DNA of 57,400 bases from Armatimonadota bacterium. GTDB lineage: Bacteria; Armatimonadota; Fimbriimonadia; Fimbriimonadales; GBS-DC. Positions 31,520 through 39,828 of this stretch are shown here, one piece after another; the stretch's first letter is position 1, and every line of letters begins with the position of its first letter. The stretch is taken from contig JAIMAN010000011.1 of NCBI GenBank assembly GCA_023511915.1, positions 1 through 57,400 of the forward strand, in the 5' to 3' direction. The notes beneath the pieces were generated by a model. It had not been told where the DNA came from and did not search any database. It saw only the letters and a program-made list of their open reading frames with translations. The translations under genes and the position numbers were made by a program.

Positions 31520-32910
31520 CGCATCACCGCCTGCTCCAGCCCCAGCGCGCGCGAGCCTTTCAGCAACACGCAGTCCCCCTTCTGCACCGTGCGCAGCAGC
31601 CACGCGCGCGCTTGCTGGGGCGTCTCGAAGTGCAGCAGTCGGCTGGGGGGAAATCCGCCCTCCCTGGCGGCAGCCGCCGTCCATAGCACTTCGCTTCCAA
31701 CCAAAACCACATAGTCCAACGGTTGCGTCGCAAGCCAGCGTCCCAGACTCCAGTGCAACCGCATGCTGTACGCGCCGAGTTCCTTCATGTCGCCCAGCAC
31801 GGCAATCCGTCGGCGCGCGGGGATTTGGTGAATCAGCACCTCCAACGCGGCGCGCATCGAGTCGGGGTTCGCGTTGTAGGCGTCGTTGATCAGCGTCCAT
31901 CCTTCAGGCTGACGCTGCAGCGCCATGCGCATCTCTGGCAGATGGGTGTGGCGCAGGGCGCGCGCCGCTGCTTCGGGCGCAACGCCCAGCACGACCGCCG
32001 TCAGCAGCGCAGCCGTCGCGTTCATCAGCAGATGCTCGCCCAGATAGGGCAGCTCTACCCACACCCGCGCCTGCACTTCGGGCAGGTTCAACGCCACGAC
32101 GCCTGCCGTGTAGTCCTCGCCCAGCTGCACCTCCGTCAGACGGGCGTGCGCTTCGGGATGGCGTCCGAAGGTGTAGATGATCTCGCACGCGCAGCGCGCC
32201 CGCAGGAACTCGTAGAACTTGTCATCGCGCGGCAGTATCGCAATCCCATCGGGGGGCAACGCCTGCACCAGCTCCGATTTCGCTTCCGCAATCGCCTCAC
32301 GGCTGCCCAGCTGCTCGATGTGCGACCAGCCGATTTGCGTGATCACCCCGACGCGCGGCTCGGCTATCTCGGCAAGATAGGCGATTTGCCCACGCCCACG
32401 CATCGCCATCTCCTGCACCATGAATCGGCAGTCGGCGTCCAGCTCGAACAGCGACAACGGCACGCCGAGTTCAGTGTTTAGGTTTCCTGCGTTTTTTTGC
32501 ACAGCGTTGGGGTAGCCCGCCTCCAGCGCAGTGGCAATCATCTCTTTGGTGGTGGTCTTGCCCGTGCTGCCCGTTATGCCAACGACGGTCGCGTTGAACT
32601 GTTTGCGATAGTATCGCGCGAGTTGCCCCAGCGCGTGGACGGTGTTCGGCGTGCGCAGCAGGGGCATCTCCTCCGCGCCCAGCGGCACATATTCCACCAG
32701 CGCGGCGACTGCGCCCTTATCGAACACCTCCTGCAGGTAGTGGTGTCCGTCGGTGCGGTTGCCCCGCAGCGCGACGAATAGGTCGCCTGCTTCGGCAACG
32801 CGGCTATCGATGCACACGCCCGTGACGGCGACCGCTTCAGGCGCGCGGATGTTCACAGGCTTCGCGCCTGTCGCCTCGATGACCTCAGAGAGTGGCATGG
32901 CTCGTCTCAT
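31516..32910 (-). CDS. murF: UDP-MurNAc-tripeptide--D-Ala-D-Ala ligase MurF
   Basis: GITGSTGKTTTKEMIATAL, INDAYNANPDSMRAALEVL, VLGDMKELG. Confidence 0.96.
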   Translation of the reverse strand: MRRAMPLSEVIEATGAKPVNIRAPEAVAVTGVCIDSRVAEAGDLFVALRGNRTDGHHYLQEVFDKGAVAALVEYVPLGAEEMPLLRTPNTVHALGQLARYYRKQFNATVVGITGSTGKTTTKEMIATALEAGYPNAVQKNAGNLNTELGVPLSLFELDADCRFMVQEMAMRGRGQIAYLAEIAEPRVGVITQIGWSHIEQLGSREAIAEAKSELVQALPPDGIAILPRDDKFYEFLRARCACEIIYTFGRHPEAHARLTEVQLGEDYTAGVVALNLPEVQARVWVELPYLGEHLLMNATAALLTAVVLGVAPEAAARALRHTHLPEMRMALQRQPEGWTLINDAYNANPDSMRAALEVLIHQIPARRRIAVLGDMKELGAYSMRLHWSLGRWLATQPLDYVVLVGSEVLWTAAAAREGGFPPSRLLHFETPQQARAWLLRTVQKGDCVLLKGSRALGLEQAVMR

Positions 32911-34517
32911 CGCTTCGCTCCTACTGCCTCCTTCGCGACCTCGATGTCGCTGAACGGGAGTTTCTCCGTGCCCACAATCTGGTACGGCTCGTGCCCCTTG
33001 CCCGCCAGCAGAATCAGCTCGCCTGCCTGTGCGGTGTGCAAAGCGTACTCGATGGCGCGTCGTCGGTCAGGCTCCACCAGCGCGACTTTGTGGCGCAGTT
33101 CGTCGGGCACGCCTGCGAGAATCTGCTGCAGAATTTGGTGCGGGTCTTCCGTGCGGGGGTTATCGGAGGTTAGAATTACGCGGTCAGCAAGCTCGGCGGC
33201 GATTCTGCCCATCGTGGGTCGCTTCGTCGCGTCGCGGTCGCCACCGCAACCGAACAGCACGGTCAGGCGCGTCGGGTTCAGCATCCGTCCCGCCTGCAGC
33301 ACCCGCGCCAGCGCGTCGGGTGTGTGCGCGAAGTCCACAATCACCGTGTAGTCGGCGTCTATCGGTGCGCGTTCGAACCGCCCAGGTACCTGCGACAGGC
33401 TCGCCAGCCCCTGCTGAATCGCTTCCAACGGGATGCCCAACGCCAGACCCGCCGTCGTCGCCGCCAGCGCGTTATATAAATTGTAGGGGGCGATTAGCGG
33501 GGTGTGCAGGAAGTATTCGTCCGCGCGGCTTTCGGAACCCCCTCCTGCAGGTTCCCCCTGCACGCAGGGGGAACCAAGTTGCGGTTCCCCTCGCGAGGCG
33601 GGGGGAACCTGCAGGAGGGGGGCAACAGGTTGCACTGCCAACGCCGTCCGCACCCAGAAGCGCAGCGCGTCGCGTCCGTACTCCACGCGCACGGCTCTGA
33701 CCAGCGCGCATTCGCACTCGCCGTAGGTGTAGACCGCACCCTTCGCCTTCGCAGCGAACTGCCTGCCCCACTCGTCGCTGATGTTGATGACCGCGCGGTA
33801 GGGCTTGCCCGACTGCTCCGCCAAGTCGGTGAACAGGCGCAGTTTCGCCGCAGCGTAGGCGTCCATCGTGCCGTGATAGTCCAGGTGGTCTTGCGTCAGG
33901 TTCGTGAACACGCCGACATCGAAGCGAATGCCGTCCGCGCGCCGCTGGTCTAAGGCGTGCGACGAGACCTCCATCACCGCTGCCTGCGCGCCCAGCGCAC
34001 GCGCCCGCTGCAGCAGCGACTGCAACTGGTACACTTCGGGCGTAGTGAACTCGCCCTCGTGCGTTAGCGTCTCGCGCCGACCGTCGGGATACTCAATCCA
34101 CGCGCCCAGCGTGCCGATAAGCACCGTCGGTTTACCCCACGCGACCAGTATCTTCTGCAGCATGTGGGTGGTGGTGGTCTTGCCGTTCGTGCCTGTGACG
34201 CCGATGGTCAGCATGTGCCGTGTCGGGTCGCCGTACAGCCGCTGCGCGATGCGCCAGAGCGCCTCGCGGGTGTCGGGCACGCGGGCGTAGGGGGTGTTCG
34301 GCGGCAGCGTGTCGGCGTCGCGTTGCAGCAGCACTGCTGCCGCGCCCCGCTGAAGGGCGTCGCTGACGAAACGATGCCCATCCTGCTGCCGACCGACCAG
34401 CGCGACGAACAGGTCGCCCGGCTGCACGCGCCGCGAATCGACGCAGACGCCTCTAATCTCGGCGTCGCCGTGCGCCTCCTGTATCGGCAGACCCTGTAGC
34501 AGCTCGCTTAGTCGCAT
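32907..34517 (-). CDS. murE: UDP-MurNAc-tripeptide synthetase MurE, carrying a repeat-derived insertion
   Basis: GVTGTNGKTTTTHMLQKIL, FTNLTQDHLDYHGTMDAYAAAKLRLF, TVLFGCGGDRDATKRPTMG, TSDNPRTEDP; insertion PLLQVPPASRGEPQLGSPCVQGEPAGGGS. Confidence 0.96.
   Translation of the reverse strand: MRLSELLQGLPIQEAHGDAEIRGVCVDSRRVQPGDLFVALVGRQQDGHRFVSDALQRGAAAVLLQRDADTLPPNTPYARVPDTREALWRIAQRLYGDPTRHMLTIGVTGTNGKTTTTHMLQKILVAWGKPTVLIGTLGAWIEYPDGRRETLTHEGEFTTPEVYQLQSLLQRARALGAQAAVMEVSSHALDQRRADGIRFDVGVFTNLTQDHLDYHGTMDAYAAAKLRLFTDLAEQSGKPYRAVINISDEWGRQFAAKAKGAVYTYGECECALVRAVRVEYGRDALRFWVRTALAVQPVAPLLQVPPASRGEPQLGSPCVQGEPAGGGSESRADEYFLHTPLIAPYNLYNALAATTAGLALGIPLEAIQQGLASLSQVPGRFERAPIDADYTVIVDFAHTPDALARVLQAGRMLNPTRLTVLFGCGGDRDATKRPTMGRIAAELADRVILTSDNPRTEDPHQILQQILAGVPDELRHKVALVEPDRRRAIEYALHTAQAGELILLAGKGHEPYQIVGTEKLPFSDIEVAKEAVGAKR
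33538..33622. repeat. Multi-hairpin palindromic element, copy 2 (85 bp), inside murE
   Basis: CCCCCTCCTGCAGG [GTTCCCCCTGCACGCAGGGGGAAC] ... [GGTTCCCCTCGCGAGGCGGGGGGAACC] TGCAGGAGGGGGG; outer arms complementary, two inner hairpins. Confidence 0.93.
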
Positions 34518-34521
34518 CGTT

Positions 34522-36414
34522 TCACCCTGCGCGTGTGCGCGGATTGAAAATCGTTGGCGGGGTGCGCGTCGTCTCGCGTCGGGACGGCGGGATACGCCAA
34601 TACCACATCAGGTACTGCGCCACTTGGCGGAACGCAGGCGCGGCGATTTCCCCGCCGTAGTAGCCGTTCTGTGGCTCGTCCGCCAGCACCAAAATCACCG
34701 CGCGGGGCGCGTCCGCAGGCACAATCCCCACGAACGAGGCGACATACCTGCCCTGTGCATAGCCGCGTCCGCCCTCAATAGCTTTCTGCGCCGTGCCCGT
34801 TTTTCCCGCTACCCAGTAGCCCTTCAGCTGCGCGAGTTTGCCTGTGCCCTGCTCCACCGCCTGCACCAGCCCGCGAATCACTAAGCGCGCGTGTTCGGGG
34901 GGTACAATCGGCTCTGGTTCACGGCGCGCGAGTGCAGGCTCCAGCACGACGCGTGGGGCGACCCAGCGTCCGTCGTTCGCCAGCACGCCGTATGCCGCCG
35001 CCAGCGCCAGTGGCGAGACCATCAGCCCCTGCCCGAACGCAAGGTTCGTCGCCCGCAGATCCCTGCCCCAGCGTACCTTGTCGGGCGCAATGGTGTGCCC
35101 CACCCACTCGCCCCCCAAGCCCGCCTGCATCGGCTCGAACAAGTGGAACCGCTGCAGCGCGCGGTAGACGCCTTCCAACCCGACGCGCAGCCCCATCTGC
35201 GCCATCGCCACATTGCACGAATGGCACAGCACATCCTCCAGCGTCTGCAGCCCGTGCCCCCTTCCCCGTCCATGCACGACACAACGGATGGACTTTCTGC
35301 CCACGCGAATTGCGCCCTGACAGTAGTAGCGGCTCGTGGGGTTAATCGCGCCCTCTGCTAACAGCGACGCCACTACCAGCGGTTTGACGGTAGAGCCTGG
35401 CTCGCACAGGAACTCCACCGCGCGGTTGCGCAGCGGCTCCATCGCGCGGTCGCGCTCGGCAGGCGTGTCGTTGCGCGGGGGCTGCAGCCCCTTGCGTGTA
35501 GCAAGATCGAAAGTCGGGCGGTTCGCAATCGCCAGAATGTCGCCCGTGTGTGGCTCCAGCACCAAAATCAGCGCGCCTTTGGGACGATGCCTGCGCCAGA
35601 GTTGCTCCAGCGCGTCTTCGGCAACCGTCTGGATGGCTGTATCCAGCGTCAGGCGCACCGACGCGCCGTCGGTGGGCAGCACGCGCTGGCGAATGGTTTC
35701 GGGAATCAGCAATCCGCCGGGCGCAATCTCACCCTCTTCAATGCCGTTCTTGCCCGCCAGCACGGCGTTGTAGCCCTTCTCGATGCCGCTTGCAGCGACC
35801 AACCTGTTGCCCGTGAGGCTATCCTCCTGCAGTTGCGTTAGCCCAATCACCTGCGGGGCAATCGAGCCTTGCGGGTAGGCGCGCGTGGGCACTTGCTCGC
35901 GTGTCAGCACAGGTCGTTCGTCTCGCCTGAGGCGGCGGAACGCGCTCTCAAGGTCGGTGCGCAGGGCTTGATATCGCTCCATCGGCACGCTTGTCGCCAC
36001 GCGCAGGTAGCGGCGTCCCGACTGTTGGGCTTGCACAATCTGCGCCTGCAGCTCTGTGGGGTCGCTGTTCAGTCGCCTGGCGAGGATGCGCGCTGTCGTC
36101 TCAGGCTCGCGCACGCGCGTGGGGTCAATCGCGATGTGGCAGCAGATTTGGCTCTGCGCCAGCGGCTTGCCGTGCCGATCCAGTATCGCGCCGCGCTTTG
36201 CCAGCAGCGGGCGACGGCGCAGCCGACGACGCAGCCCCGCATCGTAGAGCGCGTCGTGCTGAAACACCTGCAGGTGCACCACCCGCGCCGCCACCAACGC
36301 GCCGCCCACCGCCAGCGCCGTGCCGAGGCACCCCATCCGCCGAAGTTCCTGCGACTTCAAGCGCACAGTCACATGCCGATACATCGGGCGCGCGTTCGCC
36401 ATCGGTTCCCTCAT
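34522..36414 (-). CDS. ftsI: Penicillin-binding transpeptidase FtsI/PBP3-like
   Basis: EPGSTVKPL (SxxK), CHSCNVAM (SxN), AGKTGTAQK (KTG). Confidence 0.94.
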   Translation of the reverse strand: MREPMANARPMYRHVTVRLKSQELRRMGCLGTALAVGGALVAARVVHLQVFQHDALYDAGLRRRLRRRPLLAKRGAILDRHGKPLAQSQICCHIAIDPTRVREPETTARILARRLNSDPTELQAQIVQAQQSGRRYLRVATSVPMERYQALRTDLESAFRRLRRDERPVLTREQVPTRAYPQGSIAPQVIGLTQLQEDSLTGNRLVAASGIEKGYNAVLAGKNGIEEGEIAPGGLLIPETIRQRVLPTDGASVRLTLDTAIQTVAEDALEQLWRRHRPKGALILVLEPHTGDILAIANRPTFDLATRKGLQPPRNDTPAERDRAMEPLRNRAVEFLCEPGSTVKPLVVASLLAEGAINPTSRYYCQGAIRVGRKSIRCVVHGRGRGHGLQTLEDVLCHSCNVAMAQMGLRVGLEGVYRALQRFHLFEPMQAGLGGEWVGHTIAPDKVRWGRDLRATNLAFGQGLMVSPLALAAAYGVLANDGRWVAPRVVLEPALARREPEPIVPPEHARLVIRGLVQAVEQGTGKLAQLKGYWVAGKTGTAQKAIEGGRGYAQGRYVASFVGIVPADAPRAVILVLADEPQNGYYGGEIAAPAFRQVAQYLMWYWRIPPSRRETTRTPPTIFNPRTRAG

Positions 36415-36839
36415 AGGTCAGCGTTGCCCATCGCCACAGGCTTAGAGGGCGGCGTCGGAGGCGCGTCCAGTCCGACCATCGTCAGGTCGGGCTGCTCGTC
36501 GACACGCACCATGCCCGCCTGCTCCGCCCACCGGCGCAGGGCGATTTCATCGGTGTGCGCGGCAATCTGCCCGCGCAGCCGATCGATGTTCAGCTGCGTG
36601 CGGTCAATCTCGCGGTTCAGGCTCGCCTGCCGCGCGTGTTCGTAGTTCAGCATCGCCACGGCGGTCATATGGCTTGTCAGCACGGCTGTGATGATAGCCA
36701 TCGGCAGCAGCGGTATTCGGCGCGGGCGCGCCTTGCGACGCGGTCGCGCAGGCTGCGCTATCGGCGGTCTCGGACGCGCCGAGGGCGTGTGTCCTCTCCC
36801 CTGCTCGGCTCTCGGTTTCGTGGCTGTTCGCATGGTCAT
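36411..36839 (-). CDS. ftsL: FtsL-like small bitopic membrane protein
   Basis: Basic N-terminus, single TM, heptad-like region, position between rsmH and ftsI with ATGA overlap. Confidence 0.7.
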   Translation of the reverse strand: MTMRTATKPRAEQGRGHTPSARPRPPIAQPARPRRKARPRRIPLLPMAIITAVLTSHMTAVAMLNYEHARQASLNREIDRTQLNIDRLRGQIAAHTDEIALRRWAEQAGMVRVDEQPDLTMVGLDAPPTPPSKPVAMGNADL

Positions 36840-36848
36840 CCTCCTTCC

Positions 36849-37781
36849 CTACCCCACGCGGCGAGCGGCGCGCAGTTTCGCGCTCCGTGCGCGGGGGTTG
36901 TCTTGAATCTCCGCTTCGCTCGGCTCCAACGGCTTCGGGGTCAAAATCTCCAGTGTGGGTCGGTCGGCTGGCTTTGCGGGCGCGCCGACCCCGACAGGCT
37001 CACGCGCCCGCTGGCTGAGGTTCCGAAAGGCGTGCTTGACCGCGCGGTCTTCCAGCGAGTGGTACGCCAGCACACAGATGACGCCCCCCACCCGTAGACA
37101 GCCTGCCATCGCCTCGAACGCAGGCTGCAGGTCATCCAATTCGCGGTTGACGGCAATCCGTATCGCCTGAAAAGTGCGCGTGGCGGGGTGGATGCGCTTC
37201 TCTTGGAACTTTTTCGGGATGGCTTCCAACACGGCGGCGGCGAGGTCGCCTGTGGTGTTCATGCGCCCTTGGTCGCGCCTGCGGATGATCGCGCGGGCAA
37301 TCGGCTTCGCCCACTGCTCGCCCCCGTACTCGCGCAGGACACGCACCAACTCTGGCAGCCGCACCCGCTGCAGCAGGTGGTAGGCGGTGGTGGGCTGTTC
37401 CCTGTCAAGGCGCATGTCCAGCGGCGCGTCGTAGCGAAACGCCAGCCCGCGCTCAGGGTCGTCCAACTGCGCACTGCAGACGCCCATGTCCACCAAAATC
37501 GCGTCCACTGCGTCTATTTGCAATTCATGCAACACTTCAGGTAAACTTCGGTAGTCGGCGTGGAGATAATACGCCATGCAAGCGATGTCGGCGAGGTTCT
37601 GCTGGGCGAGTGCAAGCATCTGGGCGTCGCGGTCAAGCGCGATGAGTAGCCCCTCACGCCCAATTCGCTCGGCAAGTGCGCGCGCGTGCCCCCCTGCCCC
37701 AACGGTGGCGTCCACCACAACGCCGCCCACAGGCGGGTTCAGGTACTCCAGCACCTCACGCACCATCACAGGCTTGTGCAT
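36849..37781 (-). CDS. rsmH: 16S rRNA m4C1402 methyltransferase RsmH
   Basis: HKPVMVREVLEYLNPPVGGVVVDATVGAGGHARAL...FQAIRIAVNRELDDL...VLAYHSLEDRAVKHAFR. Confidence 0.97.
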   Translation of the reverse strand: MHKPVMVREVLEYLNPPVGGVVVDATVGAGGHARALAERIGREGLLIALDRDAQMLALAQQNLADIACMAYYLHADYRSLPEVLHELQIDAVDAILVDMGVCSAQLDDPERGLAFRYDAPLDMRLDREQPTTAYHLLQRVRLPELVRVLREYGGEQWAKPIARAIIRRRDQGRMNTTGDLAAAVLEAIPKKFQEKRIHPATRTFQAIRIAVNRELDDLQPAFEAMAGCLRVGGVICVLAYHSLEDRAVKHAFRNLSQRAREPVGVGAPAKPADRPTLEILTPKPLEPSEAEIQDNPRARSAKLRAARRVG

Positions 37782-38241: not shown

Positions 38242-38279
38242 CCACTGAGTCTCCACTCAGCTACCACTGGGTCTCCACT
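38242..38279 (-). promoter_or_regulatory. Putative MraZ operator: four AGTGG direct repeats at exact 11-bp period
   Basis: Plus-strand CCACT at 38242, 38253, 38264, 38275; minus strand AGTGGAGACCC-AGTGGTAGCTG-AGTGGAGACTC-AGTGGTAATCA, between promoter and mraZ ATG. Confidence 0.75.
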
Positions 38280-38286
38280 GGGATAT

Positions 38287-38315
38287 ATTATAGCGCATCG
38301 AAAACGATTTGTCAA
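38287..38315 (-). promoter_or_regulatory. Consensus sigma70-type promoter of mraZ/dcw cluster
   Basis: Minus strand TTGACA (38315-38310), 17-nt spacer, TATAAT (38292-38287). Confidence 0.85.
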
Positions 38316-38394
38316 GGGCTAAAGCCTCCACTTGCCCTCAAATTGCCCCAATTTGGGGGTCAATTTGCCATATGTTGGGGTTGACAGGCGGCAC

Positions 38395-38429
38395 GGTGGT
38401 GTCCAGTGGGGGCTTAGTGGGGGTACAAT
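38395..38429 (+). promoter_or_regulatory. Putative MraZ-like boxes and -10 box upstream of tnaA-like gene
   Basis: GGTGG (38395), AGTGGGGGCTT (38405), AGTGGGGGTAC (38416), TACAAT (38424-38429). Confidence 0.5.
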
Positions 38430-38448: not shown

Positions 38449-39828
38449 ATGCCGTTTCAGACCATTATCGAGCCGTTTCGCATCAAGGTCGTCGAGCCGA
38501 TACGCCTCACCACGCAGGCGGAACGCGAAGCCATCCTGCGCCGTGCGCACTACAATCTGTTCCTCGTGCGCGCCGACGATGTGATGATTGACCTCTTGAC
38601 CGATTCGGGCACTTCAGCGATGAGTTCCGAGCAGTGGGCGGGCGTGATGCGCGGCGACGAATCGTATGCAGGCAGCCACAGCTACTACTTCTTCGAGGAG
38701 ACCGTGCGCGAGATTTTCGGCTTTCGGCATGTGATCCCCGTGCATCAAGGGCGCGCGGCGGAACGCATTCTATTCTCGCTGGTGTGCAAGGCGGGCTGTG
38801 TTATCCCCAACAACACCCACTTCGACACCACCCGCGCGAACATCGAGTATCTCGGCGGGCGCGCGGTAGACCTCCCCTGCCCCGAACTGCGCGACACCAC
38901 GACGCCCCACCCCTTCAAGGGCAACATGGACACCGACGCGCTGGAGCGGCTGATTGCTGAGGTGGGCGCGGAGAACATCCCGCTCGTGATGATGACGCTC
39001 ACGAACAACTCCGGCGGCGGACAGCCTGCCTCGATGGCGAACATTCGCGCCGTGAGCCACATCTGCCGCAAGCACGGTGTCCCCTTCTACATCGACGCCT
39101 GCCGTTTCGCCGAGAACGCCTACTTCATCAAACTGCGTGAGCCAGGCTACGCCGACAAAACACCGCTGGAGATTGCCCGAGAGATGTTCTCCTACGCCGA
39201 CGGCTGCACCATGTCGGCGAAAAAAGACGGCTTGGCGAACATCGGCGGCTTCCTCTGCACGAACGACGACGCGCTTGCCCAGCAGGAACGCGAGCTGCTC
39301 ATCCTCACGGAGGGCTTCCCCACCTACGGCGGGTTGGCAGGGCGCGACTTAGAGGCGATGGCAATCGGGCTGCGTGAGGTGCTGGACGAGCATTACCTGC
39401 AGTACCGTATCCGTTCCACCCGCTACTTGGGCGAGCATATCGCGCGGGAGGGCGTGCCTATCGTGCAGCCTCCAGGCGGGCATGCCATCTACATCGACGC
39501 GGGGCGCATGCTGCCTCACATTCCGCCGCTGCAGTATCCGGGGCAGTCGGTGGTGGTGGAGCTGTATCGGCTCGGCGGGGTACGCAGCTGCGAGATTGGC
39601 TCCGTGATGTTCGCGAAGCGCGACCCCGACACGGGCGCGGAGCAGCCTGCGCCGCGCGAGTTGGTGCGTCTCGCCATCCCACGCCGCGTCTACACCCAGA
39701 GCCATGTAGACTATGTGGTGGAGGTAATCTTGGAGGTCTACCGTCGGCGCAAGCAGCTGCGCGGCTACCGCATCACTTGGCGGACGCCGTTTCTGCGCCA
39801 CTTCAGTTGCCACTTCGAGCCTGTGTAA
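38449..39828 (+). CDS. tnaA: Tryptophanase / tyrosine phenol-lyase family (PLP beta-eliminating lyase)
   Basis: LLTDSGTSAMSSEQWAGVMRGDESYAGSHSYYFFEETVREIFGFRHVIPVHQGRAAERILF; DGCTMSAKKDGLANIGGFL. Confidence 0.93.
   Translation: MPFQTIIEPFRIKVVEPIRLTTQAEREAILRRAHYNLFLVRADDVMIDLLTDSGTSAMSSEQWAGVMRGDESYAGSHSYYFFEETVREIFGFRHVIPVHQGRAAERILFSLVCKAGCVIPNNTHFDTTRANIEYLGGRAVDLPCPELRDTTTPHPFKGNMDTDALERLIAEVGAENIPLVMMTLTNNSGGGQPASMANIRAVSHICRKHGVPFYIDACRFAENAYFIKLREPGYADKTPLEIAREMFSYADGCTMSAKKDGLANIGGFLCTNDDALAQQERELLILTEGFPTYGGLAGRDLEAMAIGLREVLDEHYLQYRIRSTRYLGEHIAREGVPIVQPPGGHAIYIDAGRMLPHIPPLQYPGQSVVVELYRLGGVRSCEIGSVMFAKRDPDTGAEQPAPRELVRLAIPRRVYTQSHVDYVVEVILEVYRRRKQLRGYRITWRTPFLRHFSCHFEPV

Follow-up and report, generated by a model that had tools for sequence, protein, structure and literature searches.

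The window, that is the whole stretch of 57,400 nucleotides analysed here, carries on its minus strand mraZ, rsmH, an ORF of 142 aa, a gene for a class B penicillin-binding protein (PBP) and murE (Table 1). The mraZ product passes the curated cut-off of TIGR00242 (110.9 bits against 98.35), has two AbrB-like halves with PF02381 present in two copies, and matches the solved MraZ 1n0e with E=4e-14. The gene stands first in the dcw cluster, directly before rsmH, and it is the one mraZ locus in the genome. No NCBIfam match was found for the 142-aa ORF in the ftsL position. The earlier note on this DNA had described a set of repeated boxes just upstream of mraZ, and the gene behind them is indeed a genuine mraZ heading a dcw operon of the order mraZ-rsmH-ORF-PBP-murE. 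The sole Rfam match, to L31-Actinobacteria (34908-34971), lies on the opposite strand within the PBP gene and was judged spurious.

Table 1. Positions of the mraZ promoter elements, the boxes and the genes of the operon in the window.
Feature	Position	Strand	Basis
Putative MraZ operator, 4 AGTGG boxes, exact 11-bp period	38242..38279	-	read directly; family conservation
Box 1, AGTGG then AGACCC	38275..38279	-	GTGG invariant in 12 in-register genomes
Box 2, AGTGG then TAGCTG	38264..38268	-	sequence and family alignment
Box 3, AGTGG then AGACTC	38253..38257	-	degenerate in G017 only
Box 4, AGTGG then TAATCA	38242..38246	-	sequence and family comparison
-35 hexamer TTGACA	38310..38315	-	consensus match
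-10 hexamer TATAAT	38287..38292	-	consensus match
mraZ start codon ATG	38223-38221	-	
Single GTGG upstream of -35, 53 bp from box 1	38328..38331	-	family comparison
Inverted repeat GCTGAGT-GGAG-ACTCAGT around box 3, predicted 7-pair 5'-leader hairpin	38244..38261	-	marginal covariation
mraZ, 146 aa	37783..38223	-	TIGR00242, PF02381 and solved MraZ 1n0e
rsmH (mraW), 16S rRNA methyltransferase	36849..37781	-	TIGR00006 305.6 bits, cut-off 154.3
142-aa ORF, ftsL position	36411..36839	-	position only
Class B penicillin-binding protein, ftsI position	34522..36414	-	SpoVD/PBP2 models, under own cut-offs
murE	32907..34517	-	TIGR01085 510.2 bits, cut-off 257.3

Read directly on the minus strand, positions 38279-38236 are AGTGGAGACCC AGTGGTAGCTG AGTGGAGACTC AGTGGTAATCA, and the complete order from promoter to start codon is TTGACA-17-TATAAT-ATATCCC-AGTGGAGACCC-AGTGGTAGCTG-AGTGGAGACTC-AGTGGTAATCA-CGGGGGTAGCGA-ATG. 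The four AGTGG boxes with an exact 11-bp period had been reported at 38242-38279, between the -10 box and the ATG; rereading of the minus strand reproduced these coordinates exactly and placed TATAAT at 38292-38287 and ATG at 38223-38221. Both promoter hexamers match the consensus in full (12/12). The distance from the end of the -10 hexamer to the G of box 1 is 8 nt, from which transcription of mraZ is predicted to start at ~38279-38281; the array sits between the -10 hexamer and the start codon, over the predicted transcription start. The arrangement is one of direct repeats with a GTG/TGG core before mraZ, following each other at about one helical turn. When periods of 6 to 20 were tested, 3 or 4 in-register AGTGG (or GTGG) occurred at 11 only, and the chance expectation calculated from the observed AGTGG frequencies is ~1.2e-7 four-box arrays per period for both strands of the window.

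Genomes of the genus and family were found by a search with the MraZ protein, and they provided 15 readable box-bearing promoters, 14 of which are distinct (L007 and L030 are the same over the region). Four GTGG cores at exact 11-bp steps are present in 13/15 of these promoters (12/14 of the distinct ones), which come from relatives that are not independent of each other. Box 1 starts 8 nt after the -10 hexamer in each of the 13 in-register promoters, and the spacer between the -35 and -10 hexamers is 17 nt in all 15 family promoters examined. The two exceptions are G013, where one step is 10 bp, and G017, the deepest member, which has lost slot 3 and retains slots 1, 2 and 4, the last still in register. 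In the alignment of 12 genomes none of the 16 core bases varies (2.0 bits each), the spacers average ~1.5 bits and the 17-nt promoter spacer 1.15 bits; every slot has A or T at position 5 and A or G at position 6, which gives the word GTGGWR. Phylogenetic footprinting, which the earlier note had asked for, therefore finds the boxes kept in register upstream of orthologous mraZ genes. In G015, a family member whose MraZ is 36% identical, the promoter is similar and the boxes are absent, as a joint change of protein and operator would predict.

The same comparison bears on the possibility that the boxes are a recent tandem duplication without function, i.e. a minisatellite. Boxes 1 and 3 share GTGGAGAC, and boxes 2 and 4 share GTGGTA, which would suit such an origin. 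However, the cores are invariant while the spacers differ across several genera, and slot 4 remains in register even where slot 3 has decayed. A true minisatellite, such as the seven identical GTGGAGACCCA of G183, looks different. A functionless duplication is refuted by this conservation, and the probability left to it is negligible. The repeat of G183 (L260, G183:C51:11723-11792) is perfect, and its unit has the same sequence as box 1 of the window together with its spacer; no PF02381 match was found in the G183 genome.

The region upstream of the promoter was also compared. A stretch of ~70 bp preceding the -35 hexamer is conserved across the genus (window 38310-38410; the same region in L004-L015), although the divergent gene varies between genomes, and it holds the inverted repeats CCCATATRTGGG, CCCAATTCTTGGG and GGGGCAAAACCCC together with an outward TTGACG. 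The single GTGG located there recurs in most of the 15 promoters, exactly 52 bp from box 1 in most relatives, and is a weak candidate for an auxiliary box; a role of its own does not follow from this, since conservation extends over the whole stretch, inverted repeats included. The divergent gene of the window (38449-39828, plus strand) encodes an enzyme of the tryptophanase/tyrosine phenol-lyase family (NF009709, 703 bits), and in the comparison with 12 relatives a tryptophanase-like gene adjoins mraZ only in the source genome and G010/L004 (96% identical). A plus-strand AGTGG pair at 11 bp (38405-38420) facing this gene was rejected as an extra MraZ site, as it is not kept in L004, the only other promoter beside a tryptophanase-like gene, where the matching stretch is ATGGGGGCTAAGCGGGG.

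The four-box array is nearly confined to mraZ promoters. In 18 family genomes the exact pattern occurs 15 times, 13 times just upstream of mraZ and twice as a DnaA-box-like array (GTGGATAACCT), and the reversed control pattern does not occur at all. Among 150 Armatimonadota genomes, four-box 11-bp arrays stand upstream of mraZ in 8, and the remaining ones are DnaA-box-like (3 genomes) or the perfect minisatellite of G183. The 2.73-Mb genome (G000) contains just one further exact array of three or more GTGG at 11 bp, the DnaA-box-like GTGGATAACCT x4 at G000:C39:577-613. Therefore, the array is a mark of mraZ promoters, and the MraZ of G000 looks like a local regulator. The presence of that second array, which resembles TTATCCACA, is the point in favour of reading the mraZ boxes as DnaA boxes that link division to replication. 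The four mraZ boxes, however, agree with TGTGGATAA in GTGG only, bases 5-8 being AGAC, TAGC or TAAT; the boxes have the form AGTGGAGAC or AGTGGTARY and do not form a DnaA box cluster (TTWTNCACA / TGTGNAWAA), so that a DnaA function at mraZ is extremely improbable. In tandem and with steps of exactly 11 bp, GTGGATAACCT units were observed at G000:C39:577-613, G072:C1:173431-173489, G124:C213:16295-16331 and G005:C11:37998-38034. These arrays are DnaA-box-like TTATCCAC clusters and probably replication origins.

The period alone does not indicate MraZ, since direct repeats with an 11-bp step are also the targets of OmpR/PhoB-type and SARP regulators; a Streptomyces SARP-type regulator reportedly uses heptameric direct repeats. 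The boxes might accordingly bind another regulator of the OmpR/PhoB-type or SARP-type families, mraZ being no more than its target. Several observations argue against this. PhoB and SARP activators act around -35, with repeats at or upstream of that hexamer, whereas the boxes described here lie downstream of -10. Their GTGG core is the word found at E. coli mraZ, and genome-wide the arrays precede mraZ and not other genes. Moreover, arrays upstream of mraZ occur in three phyla, with the step alone changing, and the family member with the strongly diverged MraZ (G015) has no boxes. Binding by a different regulator is thus very unlikely.

Comparison with described operators favours MraZ itself. 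The operator of the E. coli promoter Pmra (Eraso et al. 2014, cited in PMC8475190) consists, as here, of GTGG-core direct repeats straight after the -10 hexamer, ahead of mraZ-rsmH-ftsL; it differs in its 10-bp step and in its three GTGGG with a weaker fourth slot, in contrast to the 11-bp step and the GTGGWR word of the window. The E. coli K-12 promoter (NC_000913) reads AGTGGGAAAT TGTGGGGCAA AGTGGGAATA AGGGGTGAGG, with GTGG at 10 bp. The Mollicutes site (AAAGTGKN3)3 (Fisunov et al. 2016, cited via PMC5282649 and PMC8475190) likewise comprises GTG-core direct repeats upstream of mraZ that are bound by MraZ octamers, but it has a 10-bp step and the longer word AAAGTGK. Nevertheless, the MraZ of M. 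gallisepticum bound in vitro the 11-bp-period HsdC repeat (GTGTTAN5)2 with roughly the strength that it showed on its own 10-bp site (PMC5282649), which is a direct precedent for MraZ binding at an 11-bp step. In Burkholderia cenocepacia, PmraBc also has four repeats downstream of -10 that overlap the start site, with 7-nt repeats and 3-nt spacers making a 10-bp step (PMC7761207). Since E. coli has the GTGG core in the same place at 10-bp steps, the word and position are, judged by sequence, those of a classical MraZ operator, and the step alone differs. The boxes had been called a variant arrangement, which applies to the 11-bp step; the box word is that of E. coli, and four boxes are known in B. 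cenocepacia.

The step was surveyed across phyla. Outside the family, a four-slot scan of 82 mraZ-upstream regions of Armatimonadota with periods 7-15, where shuffles yield 0-0.4 per period, recovered 21 arrays at 11, 6 at 10, 1 at 15 and none at other periods, these loci being samples of genomes in which relatives are not independent. Arrays at 11 bp occur upstream of mraZ in families f6, f8, f12, f17, f25 and f27, with weaker calls in f10 and f38, and the 10-bp step in a few families; like those of the window, the arrays of the first six consist of GTGG boxes, and Armatimonadota arrays differ in having three to seven slots and other spacer sequences. Upstream of mraZ in L117-L119 (G151, G118, G139), some seven RTGG slots follow each other at 11 bp, an array longer than the MraZ arrays of the cited literature. 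A scan of the same kind, with G also permitted at base 5, placed 25/29 Actinomycetota mraZ loci at 10 bp and 2/29 at 11 (one weak), and 25/30 Patescibacteria loci at 10 bp and none at 11; the comparison outside Armatimonadota covers these two phyla and, from Bacillota and Pseudomonadota, only E. coli and the published Mollicutes and Burkholderia sites. Upstream of mraZ, a clear excess over shuffles or neighbouring periods appeared at 10 and 11 only. On a MraZ tree of 91 labelled rows, Armatimonadota have 34 at 11 and 5 at 10; Actinomycetota, Patescibacteria and E. coli together have 1 at 11 and 51 at 10. Therefore, the 11-bp step is typical of Armatimonadota, where it characterizes most of the predicted operators found, and not of one genus. 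The boxes had been regarded as lineage-specific, and this holds in so far as the step sets the lineage apart, although the lineage concerned is far wider than a genus. The step needs only 4 changes on the tree, a rough minimum, as the tree rests on few columns and leaves many forks open. When the alignment was inspected by eye, no simple difference in the protein stood out between MraZ with 10-bp and with 11-bp steps.

For many mraZ genes of Armatimonadota, among them most of those in the sister families f3 and f5, the stretch scanned showed no clear array, and some of these genes are paralogs in genomes with several MraZ. MraZ is normally a single-copy regulator; several Armatimonadota genomes (e.g. 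G163, G061, G075, G144) have two or more mraZ on different contigs.

As the boxes occupy about +1 to +38 and would be transcribed as a 5' leader, they may also be considered as an RNA element, in which a hairpin at box 3 (GGAG loop) or a Shine-Dalgarno sequence at box 4 governs translation, perhaps together with CsrA. In 9/10 genus members slot 3 forms 7 pairs, with one double change from G-C to C-G, box 4 in most genus members is GGTGGTGA, which resembles a Shine-Dalgarno sequence too, and csrA is present in 60/61 genomes of the order. However, the covariation is marginal, as 21/500 shuffles of these ten close relatives score equally high, and the folding z-scores range from -1.6 to +0.5. Other genera lack the hairpin or have it moved while the in-register GTGG is kept, and the loop is devoid of the ANGGA context of CsrA sites. 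Control through such an RNA element is accordingly improbable to a high degree.

The leaders of the sister families f3 and f5, which belong to the same order, are of another kind. In most cases they stand in place of the array; they are 150-190 nt long and carry a conserved GGGCGGGGTGCTC stretch. A strong hairpin, variable in stem sequence and with GGA in the loop region, is present in most of the 13 that were scanned. The hairpins of L027, L028, L029, L031 and L032 have 11-13 pairs, and 0/40 shuffles were as good. In L017-L032, (A/C)NGGA occurs in the hairpin loop region 80-180 nt upstream of mraZ, e.g. CACAGGATGTG in L020 and GCAAGGATGTG in L029. No Rfam match was found in the f3/f5 leaders scanned, and RNAalifold returned no structure for the poorly aligned sister-family leaders. 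The hairpins resemble CsrA sites, and with csrA so widespread in the order the leader looks like a device for post-transcriptional control of mraZ.

The four boxes of the window are thus very probably the operator at which MraZ regulates the dcw operon that it belongs to; the earlier note had proposed an MraZ operator here, and the reading is supported by in-register conservation and by near-confinement to mraZ promoters. MraZ is a toroidal oligomer in the solved and described cases. Octamers have been reported on the repeats (PMC5282649, PMC7761207), and MraZ represses in E. coli and M. genitalium, while in M. gallisepticum its overexpression was accompanied by more FtsZ (PMC8475190). In the source organism, the oligomeric ring would set adjacent subunits on successive GTGG cores, placing them on roughly one face of the helix above the transcription start, and bound MraZ may block initiation or promoter escape. 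The GTGGWR words in 11-bp register cover about +1 to +38 of the predicted transcript, a position that fits steric repression of either step, as in E. coli and M. genitalium. By analogy with these species, the Armatimonadota mraZ promoter would be repressed, so that mraZ and the genes that follow would be under negative autoregulation. Over three steps against a 10.5-bp helix, the 11-bp step would shift the phase by ~+1.5 bp and the 10-bp step by ~-1.5 bp, which may imply in the Armatimonadota complex a slight underwinding of the operator, or an operator path along the ring with the opposite tilt.

Few regulators of bacterial division genes are as conserved as MraZ, whose described operators have 10-bp steps. 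A phylum in which 11-bp steps prevail is therefore a natural experiment on how a ring oligomer tolerates one extra bp per subunit, and the 11-bp pattern is a ready search pattern for MraZ sites of uncultured bacteria. The chances are about even that MraZ operators have two lineage-stable geometries, of 10 and 11 bp, with 11 usual in Armatimonadota and 10 elsewhere. If this is true, a ring-forming regulator would wrap or twist its operator in opposite senses across phyla, and protein and operator step would have changed together only a few times.
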